From: Novosphingobium sp.
Lineage (GTDB): Bacteria; Pseudomonadota; Alphaproteobacteria; Sphingomonadales; Sphingomonadaceae
Assembly (NCBI RefSeq): GCF_020852455.1
Contig: NZ_JADZAT010000028.1
Span: 280,325-344,324 of the forward strand
Direction: 5' to 3'
Length of the DNA stretch: 64,000 nucleotides
The position numbers were made by a program, and so were the translations under genes. Numbering within the stretch: position 1 is the first letter of the stretch; each line of letters begins with the position of its first letter. This document shows, in pieces, positions 10,654-63,729 of the stretch. The notes under the pieces were generated by a model. It searched no databases. It was not told the origin of the DNA and saw nothing but the letters and a program-made list of their open reading frames with translations.

Positions 10654-10655
10654 AT

Positions 10656-11879: not shown

Positions 11880-11926
11880 CACTATGGATAGTGGTCCGAC
11901 ATGCGGGGGGACCTACTAGACCTAGA
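11880..11926. promoter_or_regulatory. Candidate NrdR box pair upstream of nrdA
   Basis: CACTA-TGGA-TAGTG at 11880-11893 and ACTA-GACC-TAGa at 11915-11926, 34 nt apart. Confidence 0.45.
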
Positions 11927-14176: not shown

Positions 14177-14177
14177 G

Positions 14178-15214: not shown

Positions 15215-15342
15215 CCATCCCGCCGCGAACGATCGGCCAGCCTGGCCTGCACGCCGCACTTGGCGGGCGATCCCGGTCGCTTGCCGCCCTGGCACCGAGC
15301 TGCGCCCAATTGGCGCTTGCCCCGATGCCGAGAATGGGTTTA

Positions 15343-15359
15343 TTGCAAATCGTTCGCAA
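15343..15359. promoter_or_regulatory. Fur-box-like palindrome TTGCAAATCGTTCGCAA
   Basis: Inverted repeat resembling the alphaproteobacterial Fur site, 23 nt upstream of the PepSY-like gene ATG. Confidence 0.6.
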
Positions 15360-15382
15360 TATCAATTTGGAGTCTGTTTCGC

Positions 15383-15760
15383 ATGCGCAAGTGGCATCGC
15401 TGGCTGTCGGTGATCTTTGGAGCGGTGCTGCTGTGGATTGCGGTGACCGGCGTGATGAGCCAGTTTGCAGCCCTGGTGGCCGAGGGGCAGCCGGTGGCCG
15501 CCGCCGCGCCGCCGCCGGGCTTTACCTGCCCCGAAACGATGACCTGCCGGCCCAAGCCCGATCCCAACGGCGCGCGCGCCTGGGTGGGCTTCCTGCATCA
15601 CCTGCACGGCGGCGAGGAATTCGGCCCGGCGGGGATCGCCATTTCGATCGCGGCGGGACTGGCGCTGGTGTTCTTCAGCGTCTCGGGCCTGTGGCTGTAC
15701 ATCCAGATGTGGCGCAATCGCAAAGCGCGCGTCCAGAAGCCGGGCTGGTTCTGGGACTGA
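15383..15760 (+). CDS. PepSY-associated TM helix protein
   Basis: MRKWHRWLSVIFGAVLLWIAVTGVM...FLHHLHGGEE...GLWLYIQMWR. Confidence 0.8.
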   Translation: MRKWHRWLSVIFGAVLLWIAVTGVMSQFAALVAEGQPVAAAAPPPGFTCPETMTCRPKPDPNGARAWVGFLHHLHGGEEFGPAGIAISIAAGLALVFFSVSGLWLYIQMWRNRKARVQKPGWFWD

Positions 15761-15774
15761 CCGCAGCGCAATTT

Positions 15775-15923
15775 GGTTCACACGAAGACACGAAGACACA
15801 AAGAGGCTTTTCCGCGCCGCAGGCCTTGGGCTTCACCTGGCCCGTAGCCGAACGATCCGAAGGATCAGGGCGGCTTTGCCGCACAGCGCGGCATCTTCGC
15901 GTCTTCGTGTCTTCGTGTGAACC
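15775..15923. repeat. Palindromic interspersed element A (GGTTCACACGAAGACACGAAGAC ends)
   Basis: 23-bp perfect terminal inverted repeats enclosing ~100 bp. Confidence 0.8.
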
Positions 15924-16024
15924 CGTTCTTCCCCACCCTATCCCCAGCCAATCGCCCCCGCCGCATTCGCGCCGCGGGGTGATCTCGGCTAGCAATTGCA
16001 ACCGTTCCAATCCGGAGTCGTAAG

Positions 16025-40708: not shown

Positions 40709-41569
40709 ATGGCTACTAGGGCGCAAACATTCCAAGTTTCGGGTCAACGGACAGGGTTAACCGCCAGTTCGATCGAACGCATCGTATCCATGCTGGTGCT
40801 GGCCGGCGTGGTGGTGGCGATCGTTTACGGCTGGCTGCACCGTGACGAAGACTGGATCAACCCCGAACAGGGAATCGGCTACTGGCTGGGGATCCTGGGC
40901 GGCTCGATGATGCTGCTGTTGCTGGGCTATCCGCTGCGCAAGCGGGCGAAGCCGGCCAGCAAGAGCGTTGGCACGGTCGGCTTCTGGTTCCGCTTTCACA
41001 TGCTGCTGGGGCTGCTGGGGCCGCTGGCGATCCTGTACCATTCGCGGTTTTCCTGGGGCGCGCTCAACAGCGCAATGGCGCTGGGGGCGATGATTGTGGT
41101 GGCCAGCAGCGGCCTGATCGGCCGGTTCTTCTACTCACGCGTCCACCGCGGCTATTCCGGCCGCAAGCTTGAGCTGCGCGCGCTGAAGCAGGAAATGGAC
41201 GAAATGCTGGCCAAGATGGAAGCGGCCGGGATCTCGCATGAAGCAGTGCTGGCCGGGATCCAGCCGTTCGAGGATCGCGCGGTCAAGGCCGGCGGTGCCT
41301 TCTGGTCAAGCGCGGGTGCAGTGCTGACGCTGGGGGTCGAAACCCGCTTTGCCAAGCGCCGGATGCTGGCCGACCTGCCGCGCGGTGCCGACCGCCGCCT
41401 GCTGACCCTGCGCGCCTTGCTGGACGACTATTTCGAAGCGGTCCGCCGCGCTGCCGAGTTCGCATTCTATGACAGGCTGCTGCGGCTGTGGCACCTGCTG
41501 CACCTGCCGCTGTTCATCCTGCTGGTTGCCGCCGCCGTGCTGCATATCGTTGCGGTGCACATGTACTGA
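40709..41569 (+). CDS. Membrane protein with His-rich TM helices (putative b-type cytochrome)
   Basis: WFRFHMLLGLLGPLAILYHSRFSWG and RLWHLLHLPLFILLVAAAVLHIVAVHMY. Confidence 0.7.
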   Translation: MATRAQTFQVSGQRTGLTASSIERIVSMLVLAGVVVAIVYGWLHRDEDWINPEQGIGYWLGILGGSMMLLLLGYPLRKRAKPASKSVGTVGFWFRFHMLLGLLGPLAILYHSRFSWGALNSAMALGAMIVVASSGLIGRFFYSRVHRGYSGRKLELRALKQEMDEMLAKMEAAGISHEAVLAGIQPFEDRAVKAGGAFWSSAGAVLTLGVETRFAKRRMLADLPRGADRRLLTLRALLDDYFEAVRRAAEFAFYDRLLRLWHLLHLPLFILLVAAAVLHIVAVHMY

Positions 41570-43338
41570 TGCGCAACTGGCGGGCGATCGTCTGGCTGCT
41601 GGTGCTATGCCTGGCGGCGCCCGTCATGGGGCAATCGATCATGGAAAAGCTGGTCACGCCAGGCCCGCTTTCCGGCGCCCATGCCAGGCTTGAGGCCAAG
41701 TGCGACAGCTGCCATTCCTCGTTCCGCAAGGAGGCGCAGAACGGGCGCTGCCTGGCCTGTCACAAGGGCGTGGCGACCGATGTTGCCACCGGGACCAAGT
41801 TCCATGGCAAGTTCAACCCGGCCCGCACCGGGGCCTGCAAGAGCTGCCATAGCGAGCACAAGGGCCGGGGCGGCCTCATTGTGCTGAACCAGCGCACCTT
41901 CAACCATGCCTTCACCGATTTCGCGCTGACCGGCGCGCATGCCCGGGCCAAGTGCACCAGCTGCCACCGCGGCAACGACTATCGCGGGCGTCCGCGCGAT
42001 TGCGCCGGGTGCCACGGGCCGTTCGATCCGCACAAGGGCCAGCTGGGCCGCAATTGCCAGAACTGCCACACCACCAGTGCCTGGAAGCCGGTTCAGGGCT
42101 TCAACCACGCCTCGACCGGGTTCGCGCTGACTGGTGCGCACCGCGCGGTGGCGTGCATGACCTGCCACGCCGGCCAGAAGTGGAAACTGCCCGAAACCTG
42201 CGTTTCGTGTCACGCCCGCGACGATGCGCATCGCGGCTCACGCGGGACCAATTGCGCCAGTTGCCACACCACGGCGAACTGGAATTCGGCCACCTTCGAT
42301 CACAGCACCACCGGGTTTCCGCTGGTCGGCCAGCATGCCACGGCGGCTTGCGCCGGCTGCCATGGTCCCGGCAATGCCAACAAGCACCCGGCGCGTGACT
42401 GCAATTCGTGCCATGCCAAGGACGATACCCACAAGGGCCAGAACGGCCCCAATTGCGCCAGTTGCCACAATCCGCGCAGCTGGACCCAGACCAGCTTCGA
42501 TCATGACACGATGACCCGCTTTGCGCTGAAGGGCGCGCACCGCCAGGCTCAGTGTCAGGCCTGCCACAAGCAGCCAGCCAAGCTGGTCAAGCCGCCGGTC
42601 ACCTGCATTGGCTGCCACACCCAGGACGATGCCCACAAGGGCGGCAACGGGCCGGACTGCGAACGCTGCCACACCGTCACCAGCTGGAAGGTGGTCAGCT
42701 TCAACCACAACACGATGACCCGTTTCCCGCTGGCCGGGAAACACGCCCAGGCCAAATGCGAAAGCTGCCACACCAAGCCGCCCAAGGAGCTGAAGCTGCA
42801 GACGCAGTGCGCCGCCTGTCATGCCAAGGACGACAAGCACCTTGGCAAGCTGGGACCGGATTGCGGCAAGTGCCACACGGCCGACGGCTGGGCGATCGGG
42901 GTCCGCTTCACCCATGACCTCACGCGCTTCCCGCTGCTGGGCAAGCATGCCCAGCTGGCCTGCACCGCCTGCCATGCCGACAAGACCTTCAGCGCCAAGG
43001 GCACCACCTGCGCCGCCTGCCATGCTGACGATCACCACAAGGGCACCCTGGGCACGCCGGCACCGTGCCAGACCTGCCACAATTCGACCGACTGGAAGGC
43101 CTGGCGCTTCAACCACGACACACAGACAAAATTCAGTCTGACCGGCAAGCACCAGGGGCTGATCTGTTCGGCCTGCCATGTCCGCGCCGGCGATCCGGCC
43201 CGGACCGGCAACCAGTGCATCGACTGCCACCGCCGCAACGATCCGCACCGCGGCGGCTTTGGCGAAGACTGCGCGCGGTGCCACACCACCAACAATTTCA
43301 GCGAGATCATCATTCGCAACGGGCGGCCCGGCGGTTGA
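41569..43338 (+). CDS. Multiheme c-type cytochrome, 24 CXXCH motifs
   Basis: Hand count: 24 CXXCH in 590 aa; signal-like N-terminus; TGATG overlap with the upstream gene. Confidence 0.93.
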   Translation: MRNWRAIVWLLVLCLAAPVMGQSIMEKLVTPGPLSGAHARLEAKCDSCHSSFRKEAQNGRCLACHKGVATDVATGTKFHGKFNPARTGACKSCHSEHKGRGGLIVLNQRTFNHAFTDFALTGAHARAKCTSCHRGNDYRGRPRDCAGCHGPFDPHKGQLGRNCQNCHTTSAWKPVQGFNHASTGFALTGAHRAVACMTCHAGQKWKLPETCVSCHARDDAHRGSRGTNCASCHTTANWNSATFDHSTTGFPLVGQHATAACAGCHGPGNANKHPARDCNSCHAKDDTHKGQNGPNCASCHNPRSWTQTSFDHDTMTRFALKGAHRQAQCQACHKQPAKLVKPPVTCIGCHTQDDAHKGGNGPDCERCHTVTSWKVVSFNHNTMTRFPLAGKHAQAKCESCHTKPPKELKLQTQCAACHAKDDKHLGKLGPDCGKCHTADGWAIGVRFTHDLTRFPLLGKHAQLACTACHADKTFSAKGTTCAACHADDHHKGTLGTPAPCQTCHNSTDWKAWRFNHDTQTKFSLTGKHQGLICSACHVRAGDPARTGNQCIDCHRRNDPHRGGFGEDCARCHTTNNFSEIIIRNGRPGG

Positions 43339-43514
43339 TCGAAACCTGACATTAACTTTACAATCCGCAGTCCATTCCGGTGAAGCGATGGTCCAAGGCG
43401 GTCAAGGGAGCACCCCGGTATACCATTCCCTTTCCGCAGCCGTTTAGGGTTTGCGGGCAATGAGCCGACTATCGGCCACCCGGAACCGGTCCGGGAGGTG
43501 GGTTCGCAAAGTGG

Positions 43515-46500
43515 ATGGGTGCCTTGCCGCGCAGAACGATCACGGCAATGCTGGGGTTCCTGATGGCGCTGCTGTTCGCAGTGCTAAGCCCTTCCGTGTC
43601 TGCAGCACCGCCAACCAAATTCGACCATTTCAAGACCGGCTTCCCGCTGACCGGCGCCCATGCCACGGTGAAGTGCGAAAGCTGCCACGCCAATGGCCAG
43701 TTCGACGGCACGCCCAGGGACTGCAAGGCTTGCCACAATTCGGTCCGCGCCACCGGCCTGCCGGCCAACCACCTGCGCACCGAGGACAATTGCGACAGCT
43801 GCCACACCACCAAACAGTGGCAGGTCAGCAAGTTCGATCACTCCAAGTATTCGGGCACCTGCGCCGGCTGCCACAACGGGGTGCAGGCGGTGGGCAAGCC
43901 ATCAAGCCACATCCAGACCGCGCAGGAATGCAGCGCCTGCCATACGACCAACAACTGGAACGCAGCCCGGTTTGACCATACCGGCGTTACCGGCAACTGC
44001 GCCAGTTGCCATGATGGCCGCAAGGCCACCGGCAAGGGCAGCACCCACCTGCCGACCACCAAGGATTGCAGCACCTGCCATGGCACCAACGGCTGGGCCG
44101 GTGCCAGATTCGATCACGCCGGGGTGACCGGCGATTGCGCCAGCTGTCACAACGGCACCACCGCCAAGGGCAAGCCGGCCAGCCACTTGCCGACCAACAA
44201 TGCCTGCGCCGATTGTCACAAGGTTGCAGCCTGGACTCCGGCGACTTTCAACCACGCCGATACCAGCGCGACCTGCTCGACCTGCCACAACGGGACCAGG
44301 GCCAAGGGCAAGGGCGCCACCCACATCGCCACCACCGCCGAATGCAGCCAGTGTCATACCAGCACGGCCTGGACCCCGGCCAGCTTCAGCCACAGCGGCG
44401 TAACCGGCAACTGCGCCAGTTGCCACAACGGCACCAGCGCCACCGGCAAATCGTCGAGCCACATCAGCACCAATACCAATTGCCAGGATTGCCACACCAC
44501 CACCGCCTGGGCCCCGGCCAAGGCGGTCAACCATGCCGACGTGATCGGCACCTGCTCGAGCTGCCACAACGGGACCAAGGCCAAGGGCAAGCCAAGTACC
44601 CACGTGCCCACCAGCCAGGAATGCTCCAGCTGCCACAGCACCGCCGCCTGGACCCCCGCAAGCTTCAACCACAGCGGGGTAACCGCAGCCTGTTCGACCT
44701 GTCACAACGGCACCCAGGCCACCGGCAAGTCGAGCGCGCATATCGCCACCAACAACAATTGCCAGGATTGCCACACCACTTCGGTCTGGACACCCGCCAA
44801 GGCGGTCAACCACGCCGACGTGATCGGCACCTGTTCGAGCTGTCACAACGGCACCAAGGCCAAGGGCAAGAGCGCGACCCATATTGCCACCACGGCAGAA
44901 TGCAGCCAGTGTCACTCCACCAATGGCTGGACCCCGGCGAACTTCAACCACGCCAATGCCACCGGCACCTGCTATTCCTGCCACAATGGCACCAATGCCA
45001 CCGGCAAATCATCGACCCATATCAACACCAACACCAATTGTGCTGATTGCCACACCACCACGGCCTGGGCTCCGGCCAAGACGGTCAATCATGCTGATGT
45101 GATCGGCACCTGTTCCAGCTGCCACAACGGCACCAAGGCCAAGGGCAAATCGGCCACGCACATCCCGACCACGCAGGAATGTTCAACCTGCCACAGCACC
45201 ACAGCCTGGACCCCGGCAACCTTCAGCCACAGCGGCGTGACCGCAGCCTGCTCGACCTGCCACAACGGCACCAATGCGACGGGCAAAAGCGCCAGCCACA
45301 TCACCACCAACAACAACTGCCAGGACTGCCACACCACTTCGGTCTGGACACCCGCCAAGGCGGTCAACCATGCCGATGTGATCGGCACCTGTTCCAGCTG
45401 TCACAATGGCACCAAGGCCAGTGGCAAGAGCGCGACCCATATCGCCACCACCGCCGAATGTTCGACCTGCCACAGCACGACCGCCTGGACCCCGGCGAAC
45501 TTCAGCCACGCCAACGCCACGGGCTCTTGTGCGTCGTGCCACAACGGCACCAACGCGACGGGTAAATCCGCAACGCACATCAACACCAACAGCAACTGCC
45601 AGGATTGCCACACCACCGTGGCCTGGGCCCCGGCCAAGGCGGTCAACCATGCCGACGTGATCGGCACCTGCTCCAGCTGCCACAACGGCACCAAGGCCAG
45701 CGGCAAGAGCGCGACCCACATCGCCACCACCGCCGAATGTTCGACCTGCCACAGCACCACCGCCTGGACCCCGGCGAACTTCAGCCACAGCAATGTGACC
45801 GGCACCTGCGCTTCGTGCCACAACGGCACCAATGCCACCGGCAAGAGTGCAACGCACATCAACACCAACAGCAATTGCCAGGATTGCCACACCACCACCG
45901 CCTGGGCTCCGGCCAAGACGGTCAACCACGCCGACGTTATCGGCACCTGTTCGAGCTGCCACAACGGCAGCACTGCGATGGGCAAGCCGGCCACCCACAT
46001 CGCCACAACCGCGCAGTGCAGCGATTGCCATTCCACCACCGCGTGGACCCCGGCGAACTTCAGTCACAGCAATGTGACCGGCAGCTGCTATTCGTGCCAC
46101 AACGGCACCAATGCCACCGGCAAATCGGCCACCCATATCGCCACCAACAATGTCTGCGAAGACTGCCACACCAGCGCCGCCTGGGCTCCGGCCAAGACGG
46201 TCAACCACAACGATGTGATCGGCACCTGCTCAAGCTGCCACAACGGCAGCGTGGCCCTGGGCAAGCCCGCGACCCATATCGCCACCACCGCGCAGTGCAG
46301 CGATTGCCATTCCACCACCGCGTGGACCCCAGCCAATTTCAGCCACGCCAACGTGACCAGCAGTTGTTCGACCTGCCACAACGGCACCCAGGCGACCGGC
46401 AAGAACGCGACCCACGTCAACACCACCAACACCTGCGGCGATTGCCACACCACCGTCGCCTGGGTCCCGATCAAGACGTTCAATCACGCAGACGCGATCG

Positions 46501-47204
46501 GCACCTGCGCCAGCTGCCACAACGGCACCGCCGCGCCGGGCAAATCGCCCACGCACATCAATTCGACCAGCAATTGCGATTATTGCCACGTGACCACCGC
46601 CTGGACTGCGGCGACGATGGATCACACCCAGGCGCTTGGCACCTGCGCCAGCTGTCACAACGGCACCACCGCCATGGGCAAGCCGGCCACGCACATTGCC
46701 ACCACTGCCGATTGCAGCACCTGCCACCGCACCACTGCCTGGCTGCCCGCCTCGGTCGATCACACCACTGTCGGGACCAATTGTTCGAGCTGCCACAACG
46801 GCACCAATGCCACCGGCAAATCGGCCACCCATTTCATCACCACGCTGCAATGCGGAACCTGCCACCGCACCAGCGCCTGGGTGCCGACGCTGACCTTCAC
46901 CCACAGCTCGCCAAACTATCCGGGTACCCACTCCCGCGCGCTGCTGTGCAGCGATTGTCACACCACCAATTCGCAGACTGTGCCCTATCGCTCCCCCAGC
47001 TACACGGGCACCTGCGCGGCGTGCCACTCCAATGACTACAAGCAGAGCGAGCACAAGAAATATGAAAGCCCGACAACGGCTTACTACACTGTGTCCGAGC
47101 TGCGCGACTGCACCGGCGCCTGCCACCTCTATACCAACAGCTCGATGACCACGATCAAGGAACGGCGATCGGGAGAGCATCGGGTTAGTTCTTCCGACTT
47201 CTGA
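43515..47204 (+). CDS. Giant multiheme c-type cytochrome, 49 CXXCH + 1 CX3CH
   Basis: 1229 aa, signal-like N-terminus, alternating ~46/47-aa di-heme repeats (CxxCHNGTxAxGKxxTHI...CxxCHxTxAW). Confidence 0.95.
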   Translation: MGALPRRTITAMLGFLMALLFAVLSPSVSAAPPTKFDHFKTGFPLTGAHATVKCESCHANGQFDGTPRDCKACHNSVRATGLPANHLRTEDNCDSCHTTKQWQVSKFDHSKYSGTCAGCHNGVQAVGKPSSHIQTAQECSACHTTNNWNAARFDHTGVTGNCASCHDGRKATGKGSTHLPTTKDCSTCHGTNGWAGARFDHAGVTGDCASCHNGTTAKGKPASHLPTNNACADCHKVAAWTPATFNHADTSATCSTCHNGTRAKGKGATHIATTAECSQCHTSTAWTPASFSHSGVTGNCASCHNGTSATGKSSSHISTNTNCQDCHTTTAWAPAKAVNHADVIGTCSSCHNGTKAKGKPSTHVPTSQECSSCHSTAAWTPASFNHSGVTAACSTCHNGTQATGKSSAHIATNNNCQDCHTTSVWTPAKAVNHADVIGTCSSCHNGTKAKGKSATHIATTAECSQCHSTNGWTPANFNHANATGTCYSCHNGTNATGKSSTHINTNTNCADCHTTTAWAPAKTVNHADVIGTCSSCHNGTKAKGKSATHIPTTQECSTCHSTTAWTPATFSHSGVTAACSTCHNGTNATGKSASHITTNNNCQDCHTTSVWTPAKAVNHADVIGTCSSCHNGTKASGKSATHIATTAECSTCHSTTAWTPANFSHANATGSCASCHNGTNATGKSATHINTNSNCQDCHTTVAWAPAKAVNHADVIGTCSSCHNGTKASGKSATHIATTAECSTCHSTTAWTPANFSHSNVTGTCASCHNGTNATGKSATHINTNSNCQDCHTTTAWAPAKTVNHADVIGTCSSCHNGSTAMGKPATHIATTAQCSDCHSTTAWTPANFSHSNVTGSCYSCHNGTNATGKSATHIATNNVCEDCHTSAAWAPAKTVNHNDVIGTCSSCHNGSVALGKPATHIATTAQCSDCHSTTAWTPANFSHANVTSSCSTCHNGTQATGKNATHVNTTNTCGDCHTTVAWVPIKTFNHADAIGTCASCHNGTAAPGKSPTHINSTSNCDYCHVTTAWTAATMDHTQALGTCASCHNGTTAMGKPATHIATTADCSTCHRTTAWLPASVDHTTVGTNCSSCHNGTNATGKSATHFITTLQCGTCHRTSAWVPTLTFTHSSPNYPGTHSRALLCSDCHTTNSQTVPYRSPSYTGTCAACHSNDYKQSEHKKYESPTTAYYTVSELRDCTGACHLYTNSSMTTIKERRSGEHRVSSSDF
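44518..46200 (+). repeat. In-gene tandem supra-repeats, period ~279 bp
   Basis: GCCAAGRCGGTCAAYCAYGCYGAYGTKATCGGCACC recurs at about 44518, 44798, 45077, 45356, 45635 and 45914. Confidence 0.85.
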
Positions 47205-53105: not shown

Positions 53106-53855
53106 ATGGCAATGCCCGTCACCTTAGCTCCAACACAGGCACTGCGATCTAAGGTTGTCGACGCAGCGGGTTGTGATGAACTGCTGTTGCAGGACTTGTT
53201 CGCACTCTTTTCGCGATACTATGCCGACGTCGATCTGGCCCGTTTTTCAGCCGATCTTCGTGCGAAGGACTTCATCCTGCTGCTCGAGCATTCGGGCCGC
53301 GTGGTCGGTTTCACTACCGCCAGGCTGTTCCCGTTCGATTGGCGCGGCGAGACGATCTCGGTGCTGTTCTCGGGCGATACGATCGTCGACCATGCGTTTT
53401 GGGGAGAGCAGGAGCTGGCCCAGGCCTGGCTTACCCAGGTGGGCCGGCTGGCGCGATCGGCGCCGGGCCGGCGGATGGTCTGGCTGCTGATTGCCAAAGG
53501 TCACCGAACCTACCGCTACCTGCCGGTCTTCGCCCGGCACTATGTTCCCCGGCCGGGCCAGCCCGAAGCAAGTGAACTGACCAGGTTGCGGGATGCGATT
53601 GCCACGGCGATGTTTGGTGAACAGTTTGACCGAAACAGCGGCGTGATCCGCTTTGCCGAACCGCAAGGCCGGCTGGCAGGCCCGTGGGTAGAGCCCACCG
53701 CGCGTGAGCTCAGGATTCCCGCAGTGGCCGAATTCATGGCTGCCAATCCCGGCTTCCGCCGCGGCGACGAACTGGCTTGCCTGTGCGAGCTTGGGCCGGA
53801 AAACATGCGCGAACGGGCCCGCCGCTGGTATCAGGACGGCCATGACGGGGGCTGA
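53106..53855 (+). CDS. GNAT-like hypothetical protein
   Basis: LRAKDFILLLEHSGRVVGFTTARLFPFDWRGETISVLFSGDTIVDH. Confidence 0.6.
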   Translation: MAMPVTLAPTQALRSKVVDAAGCDELLLQDLFALFSRYYADVDLARFSADLRAKDFILLLEHSGRVVGFTTARLFPFDWRGETISVLFSGDTIVDHAFWGEQELAQAWLTQVGRLARSAPGRRMVWLLIAKGHRTYRYLPVFARHYVPRPGQPEASELTRLRDAIATAMFGEQFDRNSGVIRFAEPQGRLAGPWVEPTARELRIPAVAEFMAANPGFRRGDELACLCELGPENMRERARRWYQDGHDGG

Positions 53856-55350
53856 CTGGGCGCCCTTCACAGCCGCCTGCTCGCGCGCGGCGGCGCGCTT
53901 TGCGCTGGCGCTGACGAATGCCGTGCAGCACCAGCGCGAGCTGCTTGCCAGCATCGTTTCGACCAACGCCGATTGTGCCTTCGGGCGGGAACACGACTTT
54001 GCCGCGATCACCGATTTCGAAGCCTATTGCCGGCAGGTTCCGGTGCGCGGCCATTCCGGCTTTGCCCCGCGGATTGCGCGCATGGCAGGCGGCGAAGCCG
54101 ATTGCCTGACGTCCGAGCTGGTGATCGCGTTCGAGGAGACCGGGGGCACTGGCGGGGCCAAGCTGGTGCCCTATACCGCAGCGGGGCTCGACGGGTTCCG
54201 GCGGGCCGTGCTGCCGTGGCTGGGTGACCTGATCGCGCGCCGGCCCGCGCTGGCCAGGGGCCGCGCCTATCTTACGATCAGTCCGGCGACCCGGGCCCGG
54301 CAAGTCACCCCGGGCGGGCTGGCGATCGGGCTCGATTCAGACGCCGCCTATCTTGGTGCTGACCTGGCCCCGGCGCTGGCCGCGCTGCTGGCTGTGCCAC
54401 CGACGCTGGGCCAGTTGCGCGATCCGGGGCAATGGCAGGTAGAGACCCTTGCCGCGCTGATCGCTGCGCCTGATCTGTCGTTCGTTTCACTGTGGAGCCC
54501 GACCTTCCTGCTCGCGCTGCTCGGCTCGCTCGAAGGCCATGCCGAGGCGGTGCTCGCGCGGCTTTCCCCGGCAGAGCGCCGCCGTCTGCAAGCGGCGATG
54601 GCCGGGGCCGATCTCGACACCGAACGGCTGTGGCCCGCGCTCGATTGCATCTCGTGCTGGTGCGACGGAATCTCGGCCGGCTATGCCCGGCGGCTGCAGG
54701 CCCAGTTCCCGCACGCCGCGATCGAGCCCAAAGGCCTGCTGGCAACCGAAGCCGCCGTAACCGTACCCTGGGGACCGGGCGGCGCCTGCGTTCCCGCAGT
54801 CGATAGCTGCCTGATCGAATTCCACGATGCCGCCGGCACTCCGCATCTGTGCGACACCTTGCAGCAAGGCGAAGCCTATCGGATCGTCGTCAGCACCCGG
54901 AGCGGGCTCTACCGCTACGATCTGGGTGACCTGGTCGAATGTGTCGGCCACCGGGGGACAGTGCCGCTGCTGCGGTTCATTGGACGCGCCGGGGTCAACA
55001 GCGATCTGGTCGGCGAGAAGCTTGACGATGGCTTTGTCGGCGAGGCGCTGGCCGCGCTGGCCGGACCGGCGGTGCTGGCCGCACGAGCCGATCCGGCCGG
55101 CTATGTGCTGGTGATGGAGACGCCCGAACCCGGGGCGCTGAATCGCGTCGAAGCCGCGCTGGCACGCAACCCGCACTATGCCCATGCCCGGCGGATGGGC
55201 CAGCTGGCACCGCTCGGGCTGGTCCGGCGCGCGGATCTTTCTGTGCAATTGACGCACCGCGGGATTGCACAGGGCCGCCGGCTGGGCGATCTGAAGCCCC
55301 TGGCCCTGCTGCCCCTGGGCAGCGGCTCTGAGGAGTGGCTGTTGCCGTGA
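53842..55350 (+). CDS. GH3-family acyl-acid amido synthetase-like protein
   Basis: EETGGTGGAKLVPYT; YRIVVSTRSGLYRYDLGDLVECVGHRGTVPLLRFIGRAGVNSDLVGEKL. Confidence 0.85.
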   Translation: MTGADWAPFTAACSRAAARFALALTNAVQHQRELLASIVSTNADCAFGREHDFAAITDFEAYCRQVPVRGHSGFAPRIARMAGGEADCLTSELVIAFEETGGTGGAKLVPYTAAGLDGFRRAVLPWLGDLIARRPALARGRAYLTISPATRARQVTPGGLAIGLDSDAAYLGADLAPALAALLAVPPTLGQLRDPGQWQVETLAALIAAPDLSFVSLWSPTFLLALLGSLEGHAEAVLARLSPAERRRLQAAMAGADLDTERLWPALDCISCWCDGISAGYARRLQAQFPHAAIEPKGLLATEAAVTVPWGPGGACVPAVDSCLIEFHDAAGTPHLCDTLQQGEAYRIVVSTRSGLYRYDLGDLVECVGHRGTVPLLRFIGRAGVNSDLVGEKLDDGFVGEALAALAGPAVLAARADPAGYVLVMETPEPGALNRVEAALARNPHYAHARRMGQLAPLGLVRRADLSVQLTHRGIAQGRRLGDLKPLALLPLGSGSEEWLLP

Positions 55351-56690
55351 AGATTGCGCTGCTTTCGCCCAAAGGGCCGCTTTACCGCAATCGGGGCGGC
55401 ATTTTCCGCAAGTCCTTGCGGTATCAGCCGCTGACCCTGACCACGCTTGCCGCGCTGGTCCCCTCCGAACTCGATCCCGAATTCGTCCTTTACGATGAAG
55501 GCACCGGCGATATCCCGCTTGATCTTGAAGCGGACATTGTCGGCATCACGGTGATTACCGGCAGTTCCACGCGGGCCTATGAAATTGCCGACGAACTGCG
55601 CCGCCGCGGGCGCACTGTCGTGCTTGGCGGGCCGCACGTCACCCTGATGCCCGACGAGGCCCAGCAGCATGCCGATGCGATCTGCGTCGGCTATGCCGAG
55701 GAAAGCTGGCCGCAGCTGCTGCGCGATTTCGCGCGGGGGCAGATGCAGCCGCGTTACCAGCAGGCCGCCAATTTCCAGCTGACCAACCTGCCATTCGCGC
55801 GGCGCGAGCTGCTCGATGGCCGCAACTACCTGACCCAGGCGGTGTTCGAAGCGACGCGGGCCTGTGCGCACAATTGCGAATTCTGCGTTGCGCCCAGCGC
55901 CTGGGGGCGCAAGCAATTCCAGAAACCGGTAGCGCATGTGGTGGAGGACATTCGCCGGGTCGGCAGCCGCAAGATCCTGTTCATCGACCTCAACCTGGTA
56001 TCCGATCCGGCCTATGCCCGCGAATTGTTTACCGCGCTGATCCCGCTGAAAGTGCGCTGGTTCGGTCTTTCCACCAGCCTGATCGGGCGCGATCCGGCGC
56101 TGATGGACCTGATGGCGCAAAGCGGCTGCACCGGCCTGCTGATCGGGTTTGAATCGATTTCACGCGCCGGGCTGGGTTCGATCGACAAGCGCTTCAACGA
56201 TCCGAACCTTTATGCCGAACTGGTCCGCGATCTGCACAAGCGCGGGATCACGATTCAGGGCTGCTTCGTGTTCGGCAACGATGCCGATACCGAGGACACC
56301 TTCGATGCCACTGCCGATTTCGTGATCCGCAGCCAGATCGACCTGCCCCGCTTCGCGATCCTGACGCCCTTTCCCGGCACGCCGATCCACACACGGTTTG
56401 AACGCGAAGGCCGGATCCTGACCCGCGACTGGGAGCTTTACGATGGCCAGCACGTGGTGTTCCGCCCGCTTGGCATGACACCGGCAGCGCTGCTTGCCGG
56501 ACACGAGCGCGCGTGGAAAGCGGTCTATGGTTGGAAGCCGATCCTGTCGCGGCTGCGCCATGCCCGCGGGCAGATCCCGCTCTCGCTGGCGGCCAACCTT
56601 GGCTACCGGTTCTACGCCCACCACCTTCACACCCATTACACCTGCGATTGGCCGCATGCCGCCGACGAAGGTGAGCCGCTGCCGGCATGA
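55347..56690 (+). CDS. B12-binding domain radical SAM protein
   Basis: VVLGGPHVTLMPDEAQQHADAICVGYAE; CAHNCEFC. Confidence 0.92.
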   Translation: MKIALLSPKGPLYRNRGGIFRKSLRYQPLTLTTLAALVPSELDPEFVLYDEGTGDIPLDLEADIVGITVITGSSTRAYEIADELRRRGRTVVLGGPHVTLMPDEAQQHADAICVGYAEESWPQLLRDFARGQMQPRYQQAANFQLTNLPFARRELLDGRNYLTQAVFEATRACAHNCEFCVAPSAWGRKQFQKPVAHVVEDIRRVGSRKILFIDLNLVSDPAYARELFTALIPLKVRWFGLSTSLIGRDPALMDLMAQSGCTGLLIGFESISRAGLGSIDKRFNDPNLYAELVRDLHKRGITIQGCFVFGNDADTEDTFDATADFVIRSQIDLPRFAILTPFPGTPIHTRFEREGRILTRDWELYDGQHVVFRPLGMTPAALLAGHERAWKAVYGWKPILSRLRHARGQIPLSLAANLGYRFYAHHLHTHYTCDWPHAADEGEPLPA

Positions 56691-58048
56691 CCATGCGCCT
56701 GACCCTTGTCCATCCGGCGATCGGACGACGCCCGGGGCAAAGCTATATCCGCTCATGGCAGATGGAGAGCCTGCCGATCGCCGCACTGGCCGGGCTGACC
56801 CCGCCCGATGTCGAGATCGCCTTTTACGACGACCGGATGGAGCCGATCGATTTCGACCGCCCGGCCGATCTGGTCGCGATTCCGGTTGAAACCTACACCG
56901 CCCGGCGCGCCTACCAGATTGCCAGCGAGTTTCGCCGCCGCAAGGTGCCGGTGGTGATGGGCGGGTTCCACGCCACGCTGGCACCCGACGAGGTGGCACG
57001 ATACGCCGAGGCGGTGGTGATCGGCGAGGCCGAAGGGGTCTGGCCGCAAGTGATCGAGGACGCCCGGTCCGGGCGGCTCAAACCGCGCTACCGGGCGGAT
57101 GCCCAGCCCTGTCTGTCGGAAATCCGCTATGACCGCCGGGTCTTCGCCGGCAAGCGCTACCTGCCGATCCGCCTGGTCGAAACCGGTCGCGGCTGCCGCT
57201 TCCCGTGCGAATTCTGCGCGATCCAGAGCTTCTTTGACCGGACCAGCCGGCGGCGGCCGATCGGCGCGCTGATCGAGGAGCTCAAGGCGCTGAAGGACGG
57301 CACCAAGATGTTCTTCTTCGTCGATGACAACTTCGCCGCCGACATTGGCTCAACCGGAGAATTCGCCGACGCAATCGCCCCCCTGGGGATCCGCTGGATC
57401 ACCCAGATGAGCATCAACGCCGCGCACGACGAGGCCTTGCTGGCGCGGCTCAGCAGGGCCGGCTGCGCAGGTGTGCTGATCGGGTTCGAAAGCCTGGATG
57501 AAGCCGTGCTGCGGCAGATGCGCAAGAATTTCAACCGGATGAAGGGCGGATATGGCGATGCCCTGGCCAACCTTCGCCGCGCCAATATCCGGGTCTATGG
57601 CACGTTCGTGTTCGGCTATGGCGAGACCCGGCCCGAAGCCTATCTGGAGGCGGCCGAATTCGCGATCGATCAGGGGTTCTATATCGCCGCCTTCAATCAT
57701 CTGACCCCGTTCCCCGGCACGCCGCTCTATCGCCGGCTGGAGCAGGAAGGGCGGCTGCTGTACGATGCCTGGTGGCTGGATCCGCGCTATCGCTACAACG
57801 ACCTGCCGTTCCGCCCGGACGATGGCGATGCCGCAGCGGTTCGCGAAGGATGCCTGGCGGCCCGGCGGCGGTTCTATGGCCTGCGCAGCATTGTCAAACG
57901 CTTCGCCGACCCGCTCAACCGCGGCGAGCGCGTGCTGGCCCGCAATTTTCTGCCGATCAACTGGATGCACCACGCCGAACTGTCGGTTCGCGACGGATTC
58001 CCGCTGGGCGATCCGGCGTGGCAGGGTGAGTTGCTGGAGGTCGGTTAG
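56687..58048 (+). CDS. B12-binding domain radical SAM protein (second)
   Basis: VVMGGFHATLAPDEVARYAEAVVIGEAEGVWP; CRFPCEFC. Confidence 0.92.
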   Translation: MTMRLTLVHPAIGRRPGQSYIRSWQMESLPIAALAGLTPPDVEIAFYDDRMEPIDFDRPADLVAIPVETYTARRAYQIASEFRRRKVPVVMGGFHATLAPDEVARYAEAVVIGEAEGVWPQVIEDARSGRLKPRYRADAQPCLSEIRYDRRVFAGKRYLPIRLVETGRGCRFPCEFCAIQSFFDRTSRRRPIGALIEELKALKDGTKMFFFVDDNFAADIGSTGEFADAIAPLGIRWITQMSINAAHDEALLARLSRAGCAGVLIGFESLDEAVLRQMRKNFNRMKGGYGDALANLRRANIRVYGTFVFGYGETRPEAYLEAAEFAIDQGFYIAAFNHLTPFPGTPLYRRLEQEGRLLYDAWWLDPRYRYNDLPFRPDDGDAAAVREGCLAARRRFYGLRSIVKRFADPLNRGERVLARNFLPINWMHHAELSVRDGFPLGDPAWQGELLEVG

Positions 58049-58051
58049 ACC

Positions 58052-59134
58052 GTGGCGATAACTTTCGCCGTAGCTGGCCCTGCCGACGAAGCCGATATCC
58101 GGCGCCTGCTGCGCGAAAATCCGCTGGGTGGCGGCTGGGAGATCTCGCTTGAGCGCGAGCCGGACGGGCTTGGCGGACCACATCTGCCCGGCGAGCGGTG
58201 TACGGTGGTGATCGCCCGAGACAGCGCCGATGGCACGGCAGTGGGCCTGTGCGAACGGCTGGTGCGGCCGGCCTGGATCGCAGGCCAGAAGCGCCTGCTG
58301 CCCTATCTTGGCGCCTTGCGGATCGCGCGCAGCCACCGCCACCGGATCGCGATCCTGCGTGGCGGTTTCCAGACGCTGCGCGACCATGCCGAGCGCGCGG
58401 ATGAATGCCCCTTCGCGCTGACTTCGATCGCGGCCGACAATGGCCCGGCCCAACGCCTGCTGACTGCGGGTCTCAAGGGATTTCCGCGCTATCGCCCGAT
58501 CGGCTCGCTGGCGACACTGATGTTCCGCGCAAGGGCATGCCCGGCCGACCCTGACATCTTCGAAGCCGGTCCCGAGGACCTGCCGGAGATCAGCGCCTTT
58601 CTGGCCCGGGAAGGCGCCCGGCGCCAGTTCGCCCCGACCTGGGACGAGATCGCGGGCGAAGGCCTGCCCGGGCTGTCGTTCCTGGCACTGCGCCGCGCCG
58701 GCGCGGTGGTCGGCACGATCGGGGTCTGGGACCAGAGCCAGTGGCGCCAGGTGGTGGTTCGCGGCCTGCCGCCGCTCGCACGCGGGTTGCGCGGCGGTTT
58801 CAATCTGGTCGCCCCGCTGCTGGCCATGCCGGCAATACCGGGGGTGGGCGAACGGATCGAGCAGGCCTTCATGCCCGCACTGGCAGCCAGCGGCGACGAT
58901 CCCGCGCTGGCCCTGCGGCTGGTCCGCGCAGCGCTTTCACAGGCAGCCAGTCGCGGATTGCGGGTCGGCACCCTGGGCCTGCCGGTCGAGCATCCCTGGC
59001 GGGCGGTTCTAAAACGCCGGGTCCGGGCAATCGAATACCTGACCGATCTTTATGCGGTTCATTGGCCCGAAGTCGATCCGCAGTTTGAGCCACGCGAAAT
59101 ACGTCCGGTCTTTCCAGACGTTTCCTTGCTTTAG
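58052..59134 (+). CDS. GNAT-like N-acyltransferase, two-domain
   Basis: ITFAVAGPADEADIRRLLREN...; second half EAGPEDLPEISAFLAREGAR. GTG start. Confidence 0.7.
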   Translation: MAITFAVAGPADEADIRRLLRENPLGGGWEISLEREPDGLGGPHLPGERCTVVIARDSADGTAVGLCERLVRPAWIAGQKRLLPYLGALRIARSHRHRIAILRGGFQTLRDHAERADECPFALTSIAADNGPAQRLLTAGLKGFPRYRPIGSLATLMFRARACPADPDIFEAGPEDLPEISAFLAREGARRQFAPTWDEIAGEGLPGLSFLALRRAGAVVGTIGVWDQSQWRQVVVRGLPPLARGLRGGFNLVAPLLAMPAIPGVGERIEQAFMPALAASGDDPALALRLVRAALSQAASRGLRVGTLGLPVEHPWRAVLKRRVRAIEYLTDLYAVHWPEVDPQFEPREIRPVFPDVSLL

Positions 59135-59194
59135 ATTTGACAGATCGGTGTGGACGATGACTTATTCGATGGGATCATCAAGTTGGAGGGTGGA

Positions 59195-59812
59195 ATGAAA
59201 CGGATCTTGGCTACGGTCGCACTTGTCATGGCCCAACCCCTGCTGGCCCAGGCGCCGGCCGCACCTGTTGCGGCACCAGCGGCGGCGGCTGCACAGGATC
59301 AGGCCCATCAGGAATTGCGCGCAACGAAGGACCGGCTGGTCGCTGCGCTCAATGCCAAGAATGTTGACGCCCTGTTGGCCGAACTTGATGGAGACGTGCG
59401 CCTGACCACGATGGATTCGGTCCTGTCCAGGGGACCCGACGGGGTGAAGGGCTATTACCAGAAGATGATGGTCGGTTCGGCCAAGCTGGTTGAGGACATG
59501 TCGATCAAGGCCGATCCCGATGAACTCTCGATCCTCTATGCCGACAACCGGCTCGCGCTGACCACCGGCACCGCGCTGGTCCACTTCCGTCTCGCCACCG
59601 GCAAGGAAATGGACGTTCCGCTGCGCTGGACCGCAACCAGCGTCAATCGCGACGGCAAGTGGAAGATCGCCTCGGCCCAGTTCGGTGCCGACATGTTCGA
59701 CAACCCGGTGCTCAATGCATCGCAAGGCCTGACCAAGTACCTTGCCGGCGGCGCGGGACTGCTGGGTCTGCTCGCGGGTTGGCTGCTGGGACGGCGCAAG
59801 CGCACCGCATGA
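59195..59812 (+). CDS. SnoaL/DUF4440-like exported protein with C-terminal TM
   Basis: Signal MKRILATVALVMAQPLLAQA; C-terminal GGAGLLGLLAGWLLGRRKRTA. Confidence 0.65.
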   Translation: MKRILATVALVMAQPLLAQAPAAPVAAPAAAAAQDQAHQELRATKDRLVAALNAKNVDALLAELDGDVRLTTMDSVLSRGPDGVKGYYQKMMVGSAKLVEDMSIKADPDELSILYADNRLALTTGTALVHFRLATGKEMDVPLRWTATSVNRDGKWKIASAQFGADMFDNPVLNASQGLTKYLAGGAGLLGLLAGWLLGRRKRTA

Positions 59813-60744
59813 ACGATCTTGGGCCAGTCCTGCCGGCAAACTGGTACCTGCTTGGGCTGGCGCGTGACCTTGCGGCGGGAGCCATCATATCCGGCACTAT
59901 CGGCGATCGTGACCTGGTGCTCTATCGCGGGCGCCAGGGCGGCGCTCCGGTCGCCCTGGCGGCGCATTGTGCGCACATGGGGTGCCATCTTGGTGGCGGT
60001 GTGGTGCAGGGCGAGGCACTGCGCTGTCCGCTGCACTATCGCCTGATCGGGCCGGACGGACGCTTTGCCGGCGGCAAGGACAGGCCGCTGCAGCAGCCCA
60101 GCTATCCGCTCCGTGAATTCATGGGCGGGCTGTTCGTCTATCTTGGCGACCCCGCAACCGCGCCCGATCTCGACCAGTTCGGCATCGCCGGCAATGCGGT
60201 GTGTTATGCCGGCGAACACGACTTTCCGATCCCCTGGCAATGGCTGGTCGCCAACGGGCTCGACATCGAGCACCTCGCCGCTGTCCACGATCGCCAGCTG
60301 CTTGATCCGCCAAGCCTGGAAATCCAGGGCAGCGATCAGCTGACGGTCCGCTATCGCACCCGCCCGCAAAAGGCTGGAATCAGCGACCTGATCATGGCCC
60401 GCCTGGCGAAAGACGGGGTGCACGGGACGATCAGGACCCTGCGCGGCAGCATGATCCTGGTCGAAACCCGGGTCGGCCAGCGCCAGACCTTCATCCTGAT
60501 GTCGTTCTGCCCGCAGGGATCGGGCGGCACCCGGATCAGGGGGCTGGTCGGGGTGCGCGGGCCCGATACCGTGCTGAACCGCATCTACGCCAGAATCGCG
60601 CGGACCTTGTTCAAATCGTTTCTCTACAAGGATCTTGGCGTGCTCGAACGGATCGCATGGCATGGTCCGACGCAGGTTGATGGTCTGGGCGATGAATTCA
60701 TGCAGCAGATCTGCGCCTTCTTCCGCAGCCTTCCACATGCCTGA
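59809..60744 (+). CDS. Rieske [2Fe-2S] aromatic-ring-hydroxylating-type oxygenase
   Basis: CAHMGCHLGGGVVQGEALRCPLHYR (CxH...CxxH); NGLDIEHLAAVHDRQ iron-site-like motif. Confidence 0.88.
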   Translation: MNDLGPVLPANWYLLGLARDLAAGAIISGTIGDRDLVLYRGRQGGAPVALAAHCAHMGCHLGGGVVQGEALRCPLHYRLIGPDGRFAGGKDRPLQQPSYPLREFMGGLFVYLGDPATAPDLDQFGIAGNAVCYAGEHDFPIPWQWLVANGLDIEHLAAVHDRQLLDPPSLEIQGSDQLTVRYRTRPQKAGISDLIMARLAKDGVHGTIRTLRGSMILVETRVGQRQTFILMSFCPQGSGGTRIRGLVGVRGPDTVLNRIYARIARTLFKSFLYKDLGVLERIAWHGPTQVDGLGDEFMQQICAFFRSLPHA

Positions 60745-62347
60745 GCTGGCCGCAGCCGGTCACCAGGCGGACGCGGGCGCCAAGGCCCGCGCGCACCAGA
60801 ACTGGGCGATCCTGGCCGGTGCAGCCACGCTCAACGCTGCGCTGTTGTGGCTTGCCTCGCACGCGTCCTCGGCGCTTGGTCTGATTGCAGCTGCAACGCT
60901 GTTCGCCTTTACAAACAACACGCTGTTTGCGCTGATGCACGAGGCGGTGCACGGCAATTTCGATCCGCGCCAAAGCCGCAACGATCTGGGCGGATCAATC
61001 GCCGCGGCGTTTTTTCCGACCGCATTCACGCTTCAACGCTCCGCCCACTTGACCCATCACCGCAACAATCGCAGCGAGCTGGAGCGGTTCGACTATATCG
61101 GCCCGGATGAGGCAATCCCGCTGAAGACCGCGCAATGGTTCTCGATCCTGACCGGACTCTATTGGGCCGGCATCCCGCTGTTCCTGGTGTTCTACACGCT
61201 GTTTGCCGAGCTGGTCCCGTGGCGCCGGCTGAACGCGGAGCATGGCGGCTTCTCGAAGCAGACCAGCGCGGGTGAATTCCTCGAAAGCCTGATGCGCCTG
61301 CCGCTGCGGCGCGTGCGCGCCGAATTTCTTGCGAGCGTTGCCTTGCAAGCCGCCCTGTTCATCGCTCTCGATCTCAGTCTGGCCGGCTGGGCCGCCTGCT
61401 ATGCAGCTTTCGCACTGGCGTGGAGCTCGCTGCAATATGCCGATCACGCGTTTTCGCGGCTCGACCGGGTCGAGGGCGCGTGGAATCTGGTGGTCGGCGG
61501 GTTCACCCGCCGGATGTTCCTCAACTATCACTGCCACCTTGAACACCACCGCGACCAGGACTGTCCGTGGCAGGCCCTGCCTTCACGCATGCAATCCACC
61601 CGCAACCCTCCGCGCCGGTTCCTTTCGATATTGCTGCTGATGTGGCAGGGGCCACGCCTGCTGCCCGGATCACACCAGGGCGCACCACGCGAACGGCTGC
61701 TGGCACGCTGCGTGATTGCGGCGCACGTGGCAATTTTCGGCGTGGTGTTCAGCCTGGTCTACGGACTCTCGAGCATCGACTTCGTCTCGCGCCAGGTTCG
61801 CTATGATCTTTCCTTGCCGATCGATGCCCTGGCACCGTTCGTGCCCGCCAGTGCCGCCATCTACCTGACGATCACGCCACTGTTGCTGATTGCCGCGCTT
61901 GTGCAGCAGGAACCGAGGCGCACCCTGCCGCTGCTGGGTGCGCTGGTCTTTCAGGTGGTGATTGCCGGCCTGTGCTTCATCCTGTTTCCGGTTGTGCCGC
62001 CAAGCCCGCCGCCGGTGCCAGCGGGCACGATCACCGCACAGCTCTATGCGCTGGCGGATTCGGTCAACCTGATCGGCAACTGCATGCCCTCGCTGCATGT
62101 CGCGCTTGCGCTGTCCTGCGCCTGGGCGGCCGGAAGCATGGTGCGCCCGCTGTGGTCGGCAGTGATCTGGATCTGGGCACTGGCAATCTGTCTTTCGACC
62201 TGGTTGACCTGGCAGCACTGGCTGCTTGATATTGCCGGCGGAGCGCTGCTCGCATGGATCGGCATGGGACTGGTCGGGCCGTGGCTGACCCGTGCGCGTG
62301 ATCGGATCGAGGCCGAGCTTATCGGCCCGGCTGAAGTGTCCGGGTAA
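60737..62347 (+). CDS. Fatty acid desaturase - PAP2/inositolphosphotransferase-like fusion
   Basis: HEAVHGN, HLTHHRNN, HCHLEHH desaturase His boxes, then NCMPSLHVALALSCAW and TWQHWLLDIAGG PAP2-type motifs. Confidence 0.88.
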   Translation: MPELAAAGHQADAGAKARAHQNWAILAGAATLNAALLWLASHASSALGLIAAATLFAFTNNTLFALMHEAVHGNFDPRQSRNDLGGSIAAAFFPTAFTLQRSAHLTHHRNNRSELERFDYIGPDEAIPLKTAQWFSILTGLYWAGIPLFLVFYTLFAELVPWRRLNAEHGGFSKQTSAGEFLESLMRLPLRRVRAEFLASVALQAALFIALDLSLAGWAACYAAFALAWSSLQYADHAFSRLDRVEGAWNLVVGGFTRRMFLNYHCHLEHHRDQDCPWQALPSRMQSTRNPPRRFLSILLLMWQGPRLLPGSHQGAPRERLLARCVIAAHVAIFGVVFSLVYGLSSIDFVSRQVRYDLSLPIDALAPFVPASAAIYLTITPLLLIAALVQQEPRRTLPLLGALVFQVVIAGLCFILFPVVPPSPPPVPAGTITAQLYALADSVNLIGNCMPSLHVALALSCAWAAGSMVRPLWSAVIWIWALAICLSTWLTWQHWLLDIAGGALLAWIGMGLVGPWLTRARDRIEAELIGPAEVSG

Positions 62348-63479
62348 AGAAGTCCACCGCATCGTCACGTACCGTATCGAAATGGCCGGTACAGCAGTGA
62401 TCGCCCCCGGGGATGATCCTCAGGCTGGCTTCGCGCGGGTGGCCAGCCTCCAGCAGCCGTTCCAGCAGCCACTGCTTGTCGGCGGTATCGACAACGCGGT
62501 CACGTTCGCCGTGGAGGATCCGGACATGCGCTGTCATCCGGCCCAGCAGTGCCGGGTCCTCGATGTTGTTCTGGCCCAGCACCGCCGCGACATCGGCATC
62601 GGTTCGCGCCCCGGTGACCTGGCACAGGCGGGTCTTGATCAGGAACGGCAGCTTGGGGAACTTGCGGGTGTGGAGCGGCGCGCCGAGATCAAAGATCGCC
62701 CGCACCCGGGGATCGCCGGACGCCGCGTCGATACACCACATCCCCCCGATGCTGATGCCCAGGAAGCCAACCCGCGATCCGTCAACTCCATCCTCGTTCG
62801 CAGCCGCATCAATCGCGGCATTAAGAAAACGGGGGAAGTCCGCAGTCCAGGCAATCCCATCCAGCATCAGTGCTTCGCCCTGACCCGGGCCATCGCAAAC
62901 CAGCGTTGAAAATCCTGCCGCGTGCAGCGCCAGTTCGGTCGCCAGGTGCTCTTCCTTGCAGCCGTCAATACCGTGGACCAGGATGACCAGCGGGGCCTTG
63001 TGCGACTGGCGGTGCAGATTGGCGTAGGTCACCTGTCCGGCCCATGCGATCCCGATCCGTTTGAACGCGGCGCCGAACGCCAGCGTCTCGGCTTCGAAAT
63101 AATAGTCACGGGCCTTGCGGTAGAGACCGCGACGCTGATCGTTGAGCGGCAGGCACCCCCACTGCGCCATGTGGAACAGGTAGGACAGCTGCCGCAGCTC
63201 CGCCACCAGCGCCGCGGGTTCCAGCTGATCGCGCCGGGCGAGGAATTGCTGTTCCTTGCGTCCGACCACTGCCTGGGCCGTCCCGGCCCAGTTGTCGATC
63301 GTCCCCACTTCGTCGAGGAATTCGAAAATGACCTCCGGTTCAACGCCGGAAGCCAGCCAGCGGTTCCAGAACGGCTGCGTGATCCGCTTGAGCCCGACCA
63401 CCGCCGACAACGACCGGACCGTCTTGCTGAACACATGGTCGAAAAGCGTGTAGGCTTCGGTATCCGAAATATTCTTCAT
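62319..63479 (-). CDS. Alpha/beta hydrolase (FrsA/DUF1100-like)
   Basis: LVILVHGIDGCKEEHLATELALHAAGFSTLVCDGPGQGEA; FLGISIGGMWCIDAA; PGGDHCC. Confidence 0.85.
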   Translation of the reverse strand: MKNISDTEAYTLFDHVFSKTVRSLSAVVGLKRITQPFWNRWLASGVEPEVIFEFLDEVGTIDNWAGTAQAVVGRKEQQFLARRDQLEPAALVAELRQLSYLFHMAQWGCLPLNDQRRGLYRKARDYYFEAETLAFGAAFKRIGIAWAGQVTYANLHRQSHKAPLVILVHGIDGCKEEHLATELALHAAGFSTLVCDGPGQGEALMLDGIAWTADFPRFLNAAIDAAANEDGVDGSRVGFLGISIGGMWCIDAASGDPRVRAIFDLGAPLHTRKFPKLPFLIKTRLCQVTGARTDADVAAVLGQNNIEDPALLGRMTAHVRILHGERDRVVDTADKQWLLERLLEAGHPREASLRIIPGGDHCCTGHFDTVRDDAVDFFTRTLQPGR

Positions 63480-63562
63480 GACCGGATCATTGCAGCAAAT
63501 CCGGCCCGGTTCAAACGAAGCGCGGCCGGACCTGCACAGGTCCAGGGGTTTTCGGGATGTCG

Positions 63563-63620
63563 TGGGAGGGTGAAGGGAATCGAACCCTCGTCGTAAGCTT
63601 GGGAAGCTTACAGGTCTAAA
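63563..63620 (-). tRNA. tRNA 3'-half fragment (anticodon arm to CCA; no matching 5' acceptor strand)
   Basis: Minus: GTAAGCTTCCCAAGCTTACGACGAGGGTTCGATTCCCTTCACCCTCCCA; no AGGGTGA/GAGGGTG upstream. Confidence 0.6.
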
Positions 63621-63729
63621 TCGGTAACCGTTGTAAATCCTGCGAAAACTCGGTTCGAACAACGCGATTTTACAATTCGTTTTTGCACTTGCTTGGCGAA
63701 ACGCCGTCGGTCTGGCCAGGGGTAAAGAA

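Follow-up and report, generated by a model that had tools for sequence, protein, structure and literature searches.

What does the eight-gene operon at positions 53106-62347 of a 64,000-nucleotide stretch of Novosphingobium sp. DNA (contig NZ_JADZAT010000028.1; the whole stretch is referred to here as the window) produce, and do its genes belong together? A preliminary description made from the letters of the window had listed GH3, twin B12-radical S-adenosylmethionine (SAM), GNAT, Rieske and desaturase-PAP2 genes, had suggested a modified N-acyl or membrane lipid as the product, and had not recognised the combination as a known pathway. Our study identified a five-gene core of this operon (G1, GH3, R1, R2 and G5) that moves as one unit between phyla, and we consider that the operon is probably mobile and that it builds a lipid or lipoamino compound N-acylated through an amide link; the product class suggested earlier is also, in our judgement, the best one.

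According to the calls of open reading frames (ORFs) and to our reading of the window, the operon consists of eight + strand ORFs, all of them located where the preliminary description had placed them and most of them overlapping, with intergenic gaps, from G1 to G8, of -14, -4, -4, +3, +60, -4 and -8 nucleotides. The 60-nucleotide gap precedes the SnoaL-like gene G6, whose likely ATG was read at 59195. A scan with the sigma-70 consensus gave a site count not above that of shuffled sequence. The eight genes and the convergent gene that follows them are:

53106-53855, + strand: G1, single GNAT-fold protein, 249 amino acids; core; no Pfam family, fold from AlphaFold2 and Foldseek
53842-55350, + strand: G2, GH3-family adenylating amide ligase, 502 amino acids; core; PF03321 (8e-33) and PF23571 (7e-13)
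55347-56690, + strand: G3 (R1), B12-binding radical SAM enzyme, 447 amino acids; core; PF04055 and PF02310
56687-58048, + strand: G4 (R2), B12-binding radical SAM enzyme, 453 amino acids; core; PF04055 (1e-13)
58052-59134, + strand: G5, predicted N-acyltransferase of the N-myristoyltransferase (NMT) type, a double GNAT, 360 amino acids; core; structure match
59195-59812, + strand: G6, NTF2/SnoaL-like protein, membrane-anchored; accessory; PF14534 (SnoaL/DUF4440, 7e-7)
59809-60744, + strand: G7, Rieske non-haem iron oxygenase, 311 amino acids; accessory; PF00355 (4e-12)
60737-62347, + strand: G8, membrane di-iron desaturase/hydroxylase fused to a PAP2_3 phosphatase/phosphotransferase; accessory; PF00487 (1e-20) and PF14378 (8e-10)
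62319-63662, - strand: convergent alpha/beta-hydrolase, start codon uncertain; PF12146 (7e-8)

The Pfam domain calls agree with the labels given earlier to the GH3, radical SAM, Rieske and desaturase-PAP2 genes, and the window genes retain the catalytic motifs expected of those enzyme families that were recognised. These include ETGGTGGAKLVP, KGLLATE, YRYDLGD and GEK in the GH3 enzyme; CAHNCEFC and GGPH in R1; CRFPCEFC in R2, whose B12-binding match is slightly below the cut-off; the Rieske pattern C-x-H...C-x-x-H and the iron motif DIEHLAAVH in G7; and the boxes HEAVH, HLTHH, HLEHH, PSLH and HWLLD in G8. A signal peptide and a C-terminal transmembrane anchor with a basic cluster were read in the sequence of G6. 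The two GNAT labels are confirmed by structure prediction: Pfam gives no match for the window copies of G1 and G5, AlphaFold2 and Foldseek do give GNAT folds for both, and the second is modelled as an NMT-type double GNAT, which the preliminary description had missed.

The unity of the core rests on its conservation in distant relatives. In our study, an alignment of R1 was scanned against 85,462 genomes, one per species, and this yielded 57 loci in approximately 11 credible phyla, with R1 identities across phyla mostly between 53 and 82%. The core counts rest on the 32 loci flanked by 7 kb or more on both sides, where R1 is accompanied by R2 in all 32 and by G1, GH3 and G5 in 31 each; in 51 of 52 loci the gene directly after R1 is R2. 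The gene order G1-GH3-R1-R2-G5 is found in most Pseudomonadota and Desulfovibrio, and the order R1-R2-G5-G1-GH3 in most Planctomycetota, Gemmatimonadota and others. An independent whole-genome profile search of 399 Pseudomonadota genomes identified G1-type proteins in seven (one weak) and G5 in five, and all five G5-bearing genomes (our own and four more) have G1, with GH3 adjoining it. The conserved co-occurrence across phyla sets this gene set beyond chance, and relatives did not show the genes scattered, which the preliminary description had named as grounds for refutation: almost all relative loci keep the core in synteny.

Several lines of evidence suggest that the cluster spreads horizontally. 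A 159-kb IncF plasmid from Citrobacter portucalensis carries the same gene order, and tblastn of plasmids gave identities of 61-62% for its R1 and R2; the distribution is patchy, the GH3 gene not having been found in 150 genomes of the same genus, family and order; and the R1 tree mixes phyla, its starred branches requiring at least five changes for Pseudomonadota and at least four for Planctomycetota and splitting both Gemmatimonadota and Verrucomicrobiota. The credible phyla are Pseudomonadota, Planctomycetota, Thermodesulfobacteriota, Acidobacteriota, Gemmatimonadota, Verrucomicrobiota, Chloroflexota, Binatota, Campylobacterota, Cyanobacteriota and Myxococcota, and the cultured carriers, among which are gut-associated genera, include Morganella morganii, Citrobacter youngae, Budvicia, Leminorella and Sulfitobacter. 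The GC content of the operon (0.63-0.68) is equal to that of its surroundings, so composition does not point to recent acquisition from a donor of low GC content. A viral origin was not borne out, viral contigs giving no matches, and the second radical SAM gene of Citrobacter had no DNA match in E. coli. In a record assigned to Bacteroidota (Chryseobacterium sp. 18061, L066), R1 does not differ from the R1 of Citrobacter sp. 18056 (L065), and the record is probably the product of cross-contamination between assemblies.

Special attention was given to G5 and G1. AlphaFold2 models of both were built from alignments of the window and locus sequences. The G1 model, with a predicted local distance difference test (pLDDT) of 94.5, consists of one GNAT domain with extra elements, and its best Foldseek matches in the PDB are aminoglycoside 2'-acetyltransferases (best AAC(2'), E 7e-7), with NatD also among them. 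The G5 model (pLDDT 92) is a double GNAT of the NMT type: N-myristoyltransferases fill all of the top 50 places when it is compared with the whole PDB (E 1.7e-12, TM-score 0.61), and NMT (PF01233/PF02799) is its best structural match over the whole length. Unlike the known enzymes, G5 is bacterial, shares only about 12% identity with them and lies within a biosynthetic cluster. Sequence profiles lead to NMT too, though weakly, with NMT_C (PF02799) at 0.0037 in one family member and NMT chains at 0.09; the NMT_C cut-off of 27.9 bits is missed by the family, whose best scanned member reaches 17.4 bits.

The C-terminus of G5 supplies a possible second likeness. All 55 of 55 G5 sequences end at the same alignment column, with a tail length of 0 and the terminal motif [E/D]-x-x-x-[L/M/I]-end, unlike the tails of G1, GH3, R1 and R2 from the same loci, which vary by many residues. 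NMT uses its terminal carboxylate, which reaches into the active site, as catalytic base, and hardly any activity can be detected once its last three residues are removed (PMC7048800); a 2016 review considered this form of catalysis unique to NMT among GNATs (PMC4964394). An invariant, tail-less end is what would be expected if the terminal carboxylate were catalytic in G5 as well, and by this analogy we infer that its C-terminus may reach the active site with the carboxylate acting as base. NMT-type structures in bacteria and archaea were reported in 2025 as unexpected, and no function is assigned to them in the excerpted text of that paper (PMC12219266). A protein N-terminal glycine is an unlikely substrate for G5.

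The core thus holds three enzymes predicted to form acyl-amide (or ester) bonds, GH3, G5 and G1, and the recurrent families of the loci include no polyketide synthase (PKS), nonribosomal peptide synthetase (NRPS) or acyl carrier protein (ACP) genes. In the pathway that we propose, the GH3 enzyme would convert a carboxylic acid to an acyl-adenylate and couple it to an amine; G5 would transfer a long acyl chain from acyl-CoA to an amine, in the way that NMT acylates an N-terminal glycine, with the carboxylate at its own C-terminus serving as general base; and G1 would carry out another acyl transfer. The pair of B12-radical SAM enzymes, or four or five of them in richer versions, may act on unactivated carbons in the acyl chain or the head, either methylating them or forming or rearranging C-C bonds there, and the desaturase, PAP2, Rieske and periplasm-facing SnoaL-like proteins would finish the product at the membrane in many lineages, this one included.

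Since our sampling was conditioned on R1, clusters without it (Acinetobacter, Burkholderia and the genomes G578, G699 and G702) are under-sampled; those of Acinetobacter, G699 and G702 lack radical SAM genes altogether and consist of G1, GH3 and G5. The Acinetobacter cluster adjoins HlyD/EmrB/TolC genes and that of G699 adjoins EmrB. The existence of these three-gene versions, in Acinetobacter beside an EmrAB-type exporter, suggests that the product of G1, GH3 and G5 is the scaffold and that the other enzymes tailor it.

The same exporters favour the strongest rival explanation, in which the cluster makes a secreted small amide (a signal, antibiotic or metallophore) with short or aromatic acyl groups, and the membrane enzymes merely finish or protect it. 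A major facilitator superfamily gene near the Desulfovibrio copies, the presence of GH3 relatives in polyketide clusters, and the acetylation of free histidine by HisAT, a double GNAT (PMC12219266), point the same way. However, most full clusters have no conserved exporter, the desaturase, PAP2 and membrane-anchored SnoaL-like protein each appear in roughly half of the well-covered loci, and the fold match of G5 is to a long-chain acyl enzyme. We therefore give a secreted amide perhaps one chance for every few held by other readings, and regard it as rather unlikely.

Regarding these minimal and variant clusters, we also observed the following. In Acinetobacter baumannii NZ_CP104448.1 (L035, filed as a plasmid), the G1, GH3 and G5 set at 8593-15957 lies amid the exporter genes and near insertion-sequence-like ORFs. 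The Burkholderia arboris cluster holds G1, G5, desaturase, GH3 and Rieske genes. An Acidobacteria metagenome-assembled genome (L076) has two G1-GH3 pairs, at 31-1793 and 11915-14082, on either side of one radical SAM block, and two Azospirillum plasmids (L036, L037) encode G1-like proteins of about 27% identity.

Comparison with known systems situates the GH3 and radical SAM enzymes. GH3 enzymes adenylate a carboxylate and then couple it to an amine, and G2 passes two GH3 superfamily models (114 and 49 bits, each against a cut-off of 23.6). Its relatives include a GH3 ligase in a borrelidin-like polyketide cluster; both ligases lie inside natural-product clusters, but the identity is approximately 34% over 68% of the query, and our cluster is free of PKS and NRPS genes. 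Among characterised bacterial enzymes the closest is OlsH of Singulisphaera acidiphila, a GH3 enzyme that forms N-acyl-ornithine (PMC12493201), and its model (NF052613) is the sole NCBIfam match of the window GH3, at 48.4 bits against a cut-off of 620 and in two partial stretches. The OlsH/OlsI ornithine lipid pathway (PMC12493201) resembles our cluster in its bacterial lipid context and in placing GH3 beside an alpha/beta-hydrolase, whereas ours adds the NMT-type and GNAT acyltransferases, the B12-radical SAM enzymes, the Rieske oxygenase and the desaturase-PAP2 protein, and the Pfam matches of the operon include no OlsG-type methyltransferase. The convergent hydrolase at 62319-63662 holds the same position beside the cluster in Sulfitobacter and Aliiroseovarius (L062 and L063), and therefore probably belongs to the alphaproteobacterial version of the unit.

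R1 and R2 share the architecture of B12-binding and radical SAM domains with HpnR, HpnJ and the ladderane-type enzyme (TIGR04072, rSAM_ladder_B12), but miss the curated cut-offs widely: each scores 65 bits against 360 with the ladderane model, 68-73 against 578 with HpnJ and 47-51 against 650 with HpnR. The partner genes of ladderane and hopanoid pathways were likewise not recognised. A known ladderane-, hopanoid- or ornithine-lipid-type pathway in an unusual host, to which these weak matches and that to OlsH (48/620, 65/360 and 68-73/578 bits for OlsH, rSAM_ladder and HpnJ) might have led, is highly improbable given such distances, and the neighbourhoods hold no conserved FabF or ACP family beyond those listed. 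Characterised lipid enzymes of the B12-radical SAM kind (HpnR, HpnJ, ladderane type) act on lipid carbons. PhpK, also among the nearest models, methylates phosphorus, and ApyD, the best NCBIfam match of R2, methylates peptides. As the nearest models act on lipid carbons or methylate, the generic expectation is methylation or C-C bond formation.

The ApyD match, which is far below its cut-off, raises another reading, namely a pathway for ribosomally synthesised and post-translationally modified peptides (RiPPs) or for protein lipidation, in which a peptide, or else the SnoaL-like protein, would be the substrate of the radical SAM and NMT-like enzymes. The action of NMT on N-terminal glycine and a weak resemblance of the SnoaL-like tail in Citrobacter to the GGIII-CTERM sorting signal would fit it. 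Nevertheless, no conserved small ORF for a precursor peptide was found beside the core genes of the clusters, the tail motif is not conserved, and many loci with the core yielded no SnoaL gene; we consider this reading very unlikely. The resemblance comes from the Citrobacter youngae protein (L068, 16986-17573), and the window G6 also has GG, a transmembrane segment and RRKR at its C-terminal tail. A C-terminal sorting signal on the SnoaL-like protein was rejected, the NCBIfam match being weak and the Gly-Gly motif not conserved across loci.

The accessory genes recur in part of the loci. In the 32 well-covered loci, the desaturase was counted in 18, two further radical SAM enzymes, R3 and R4, in 18 and 17, SnoaL in 16, PAP2 in 15 and Rieske in six; these are lower bounds, since profile searches detect more. 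Homologues of G6 occur in 26 loci, and the majority of them have a motif of the FDNP type, a transmembrane segment and a basic tail. The desaturase and PAP2 are one fused gene in the window and separate genes in the Sulfitobacter, Sulfuricurvum and Enterobacterales relatives, a Rosetta-stone arrangement that supports a shared substrate at the membrane. Near the accessory genes of L061 (16575-17243) and eight other loci lies a polytopic membrane protein, an orphan some 222 amino acids long that matches no Pfam or NCBIfam model. In Morganella morganii Mm1 (L071, 13730-16064) the cluster is decayed, with R3 truncated, R4, PAP2 and SnoaL missing and the desaturase fragmented, unlike strains L070 and L072, which keep the full gene set.

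The preliminary description had also proposed a link to the neighbouring electron-transfer system, which our results do not support: ORFs with at least three CXXCH motifs occur near just one of the 59 relative loci scanned, and homologues of the multihaem gene are present in relatives without GH3 (G013, G098, G104, G116 and G124). These neighbours, at 41488-47204 of the window, are a pair of large genes for multihaem c-type cytochromes (616 and 1229 amino acids, with numerous matches to cytochrome c7/c3), after which come a SPOR/TPR protein and ccm-like genes. The 1229-residue protein has matches, mostly partial or weak, in 14 of the 100 genomes searched, our own included.

It is important to consider what weighs against an N-acyl lipid or lipoamino product. 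No operon protein reaches an NCBIfam cut-off, so the substrate class is drawn from superfamily roles, and B12 binding by R1 and R2 is assumed from domain calls. The low identity of G5 to NMT counts here as well, together with a fall of its model to pLDDT 62 at residues 341-350 and a PF02799 search of its own genome that gave no match, with an equally silent control. Double GNATs of the HisAT/NAT16 type show that enzymes of this fold can work with small acyl groups and with free amino acids as well (PMC12219266). Lastly, many locus records are metagenome-assembled genomes of uncertain taxonomy.

The earlier impression of an unrecognised pathway held, as no protein scored above an NCBIfam cut-off and no characterised cluster was matched. 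The searched literature held no description of a cluster with GH3 and radical SAM genes, which is weak evidence because most subscription journals were outside its scope. With all specific models far below their cut-offs, we file the operon as a new type of GH3-based acyl-amide pathway, apparently undescribed as far as our searches reached. We also propose, tentatively and at somewhat less than even confidence, that it represents a pan-bacterial, horizontally spread pathway in which a true functional counterpart of NMT, with C-terminal-carboxylate catalysis, GH3 and two to five B12-radical SAM enzymes would make an unseen class of N-acyl lipids, from Planctomycetota to the gut-associated Morganella, Citrobacter and Desulfovibrio.

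A five-gene core kept together over about 11 phyla, and absent from the host relatives searched, points to a product worth acquiring, and some of the carriers are cultured and tractable, so that this product can be sought. The G5 family gives bacterial NMT-type proteins, so far only predicted structures, a pathway context, in which the evolutionary origin and mechanism of N-myristoyltransferase become directly testable.

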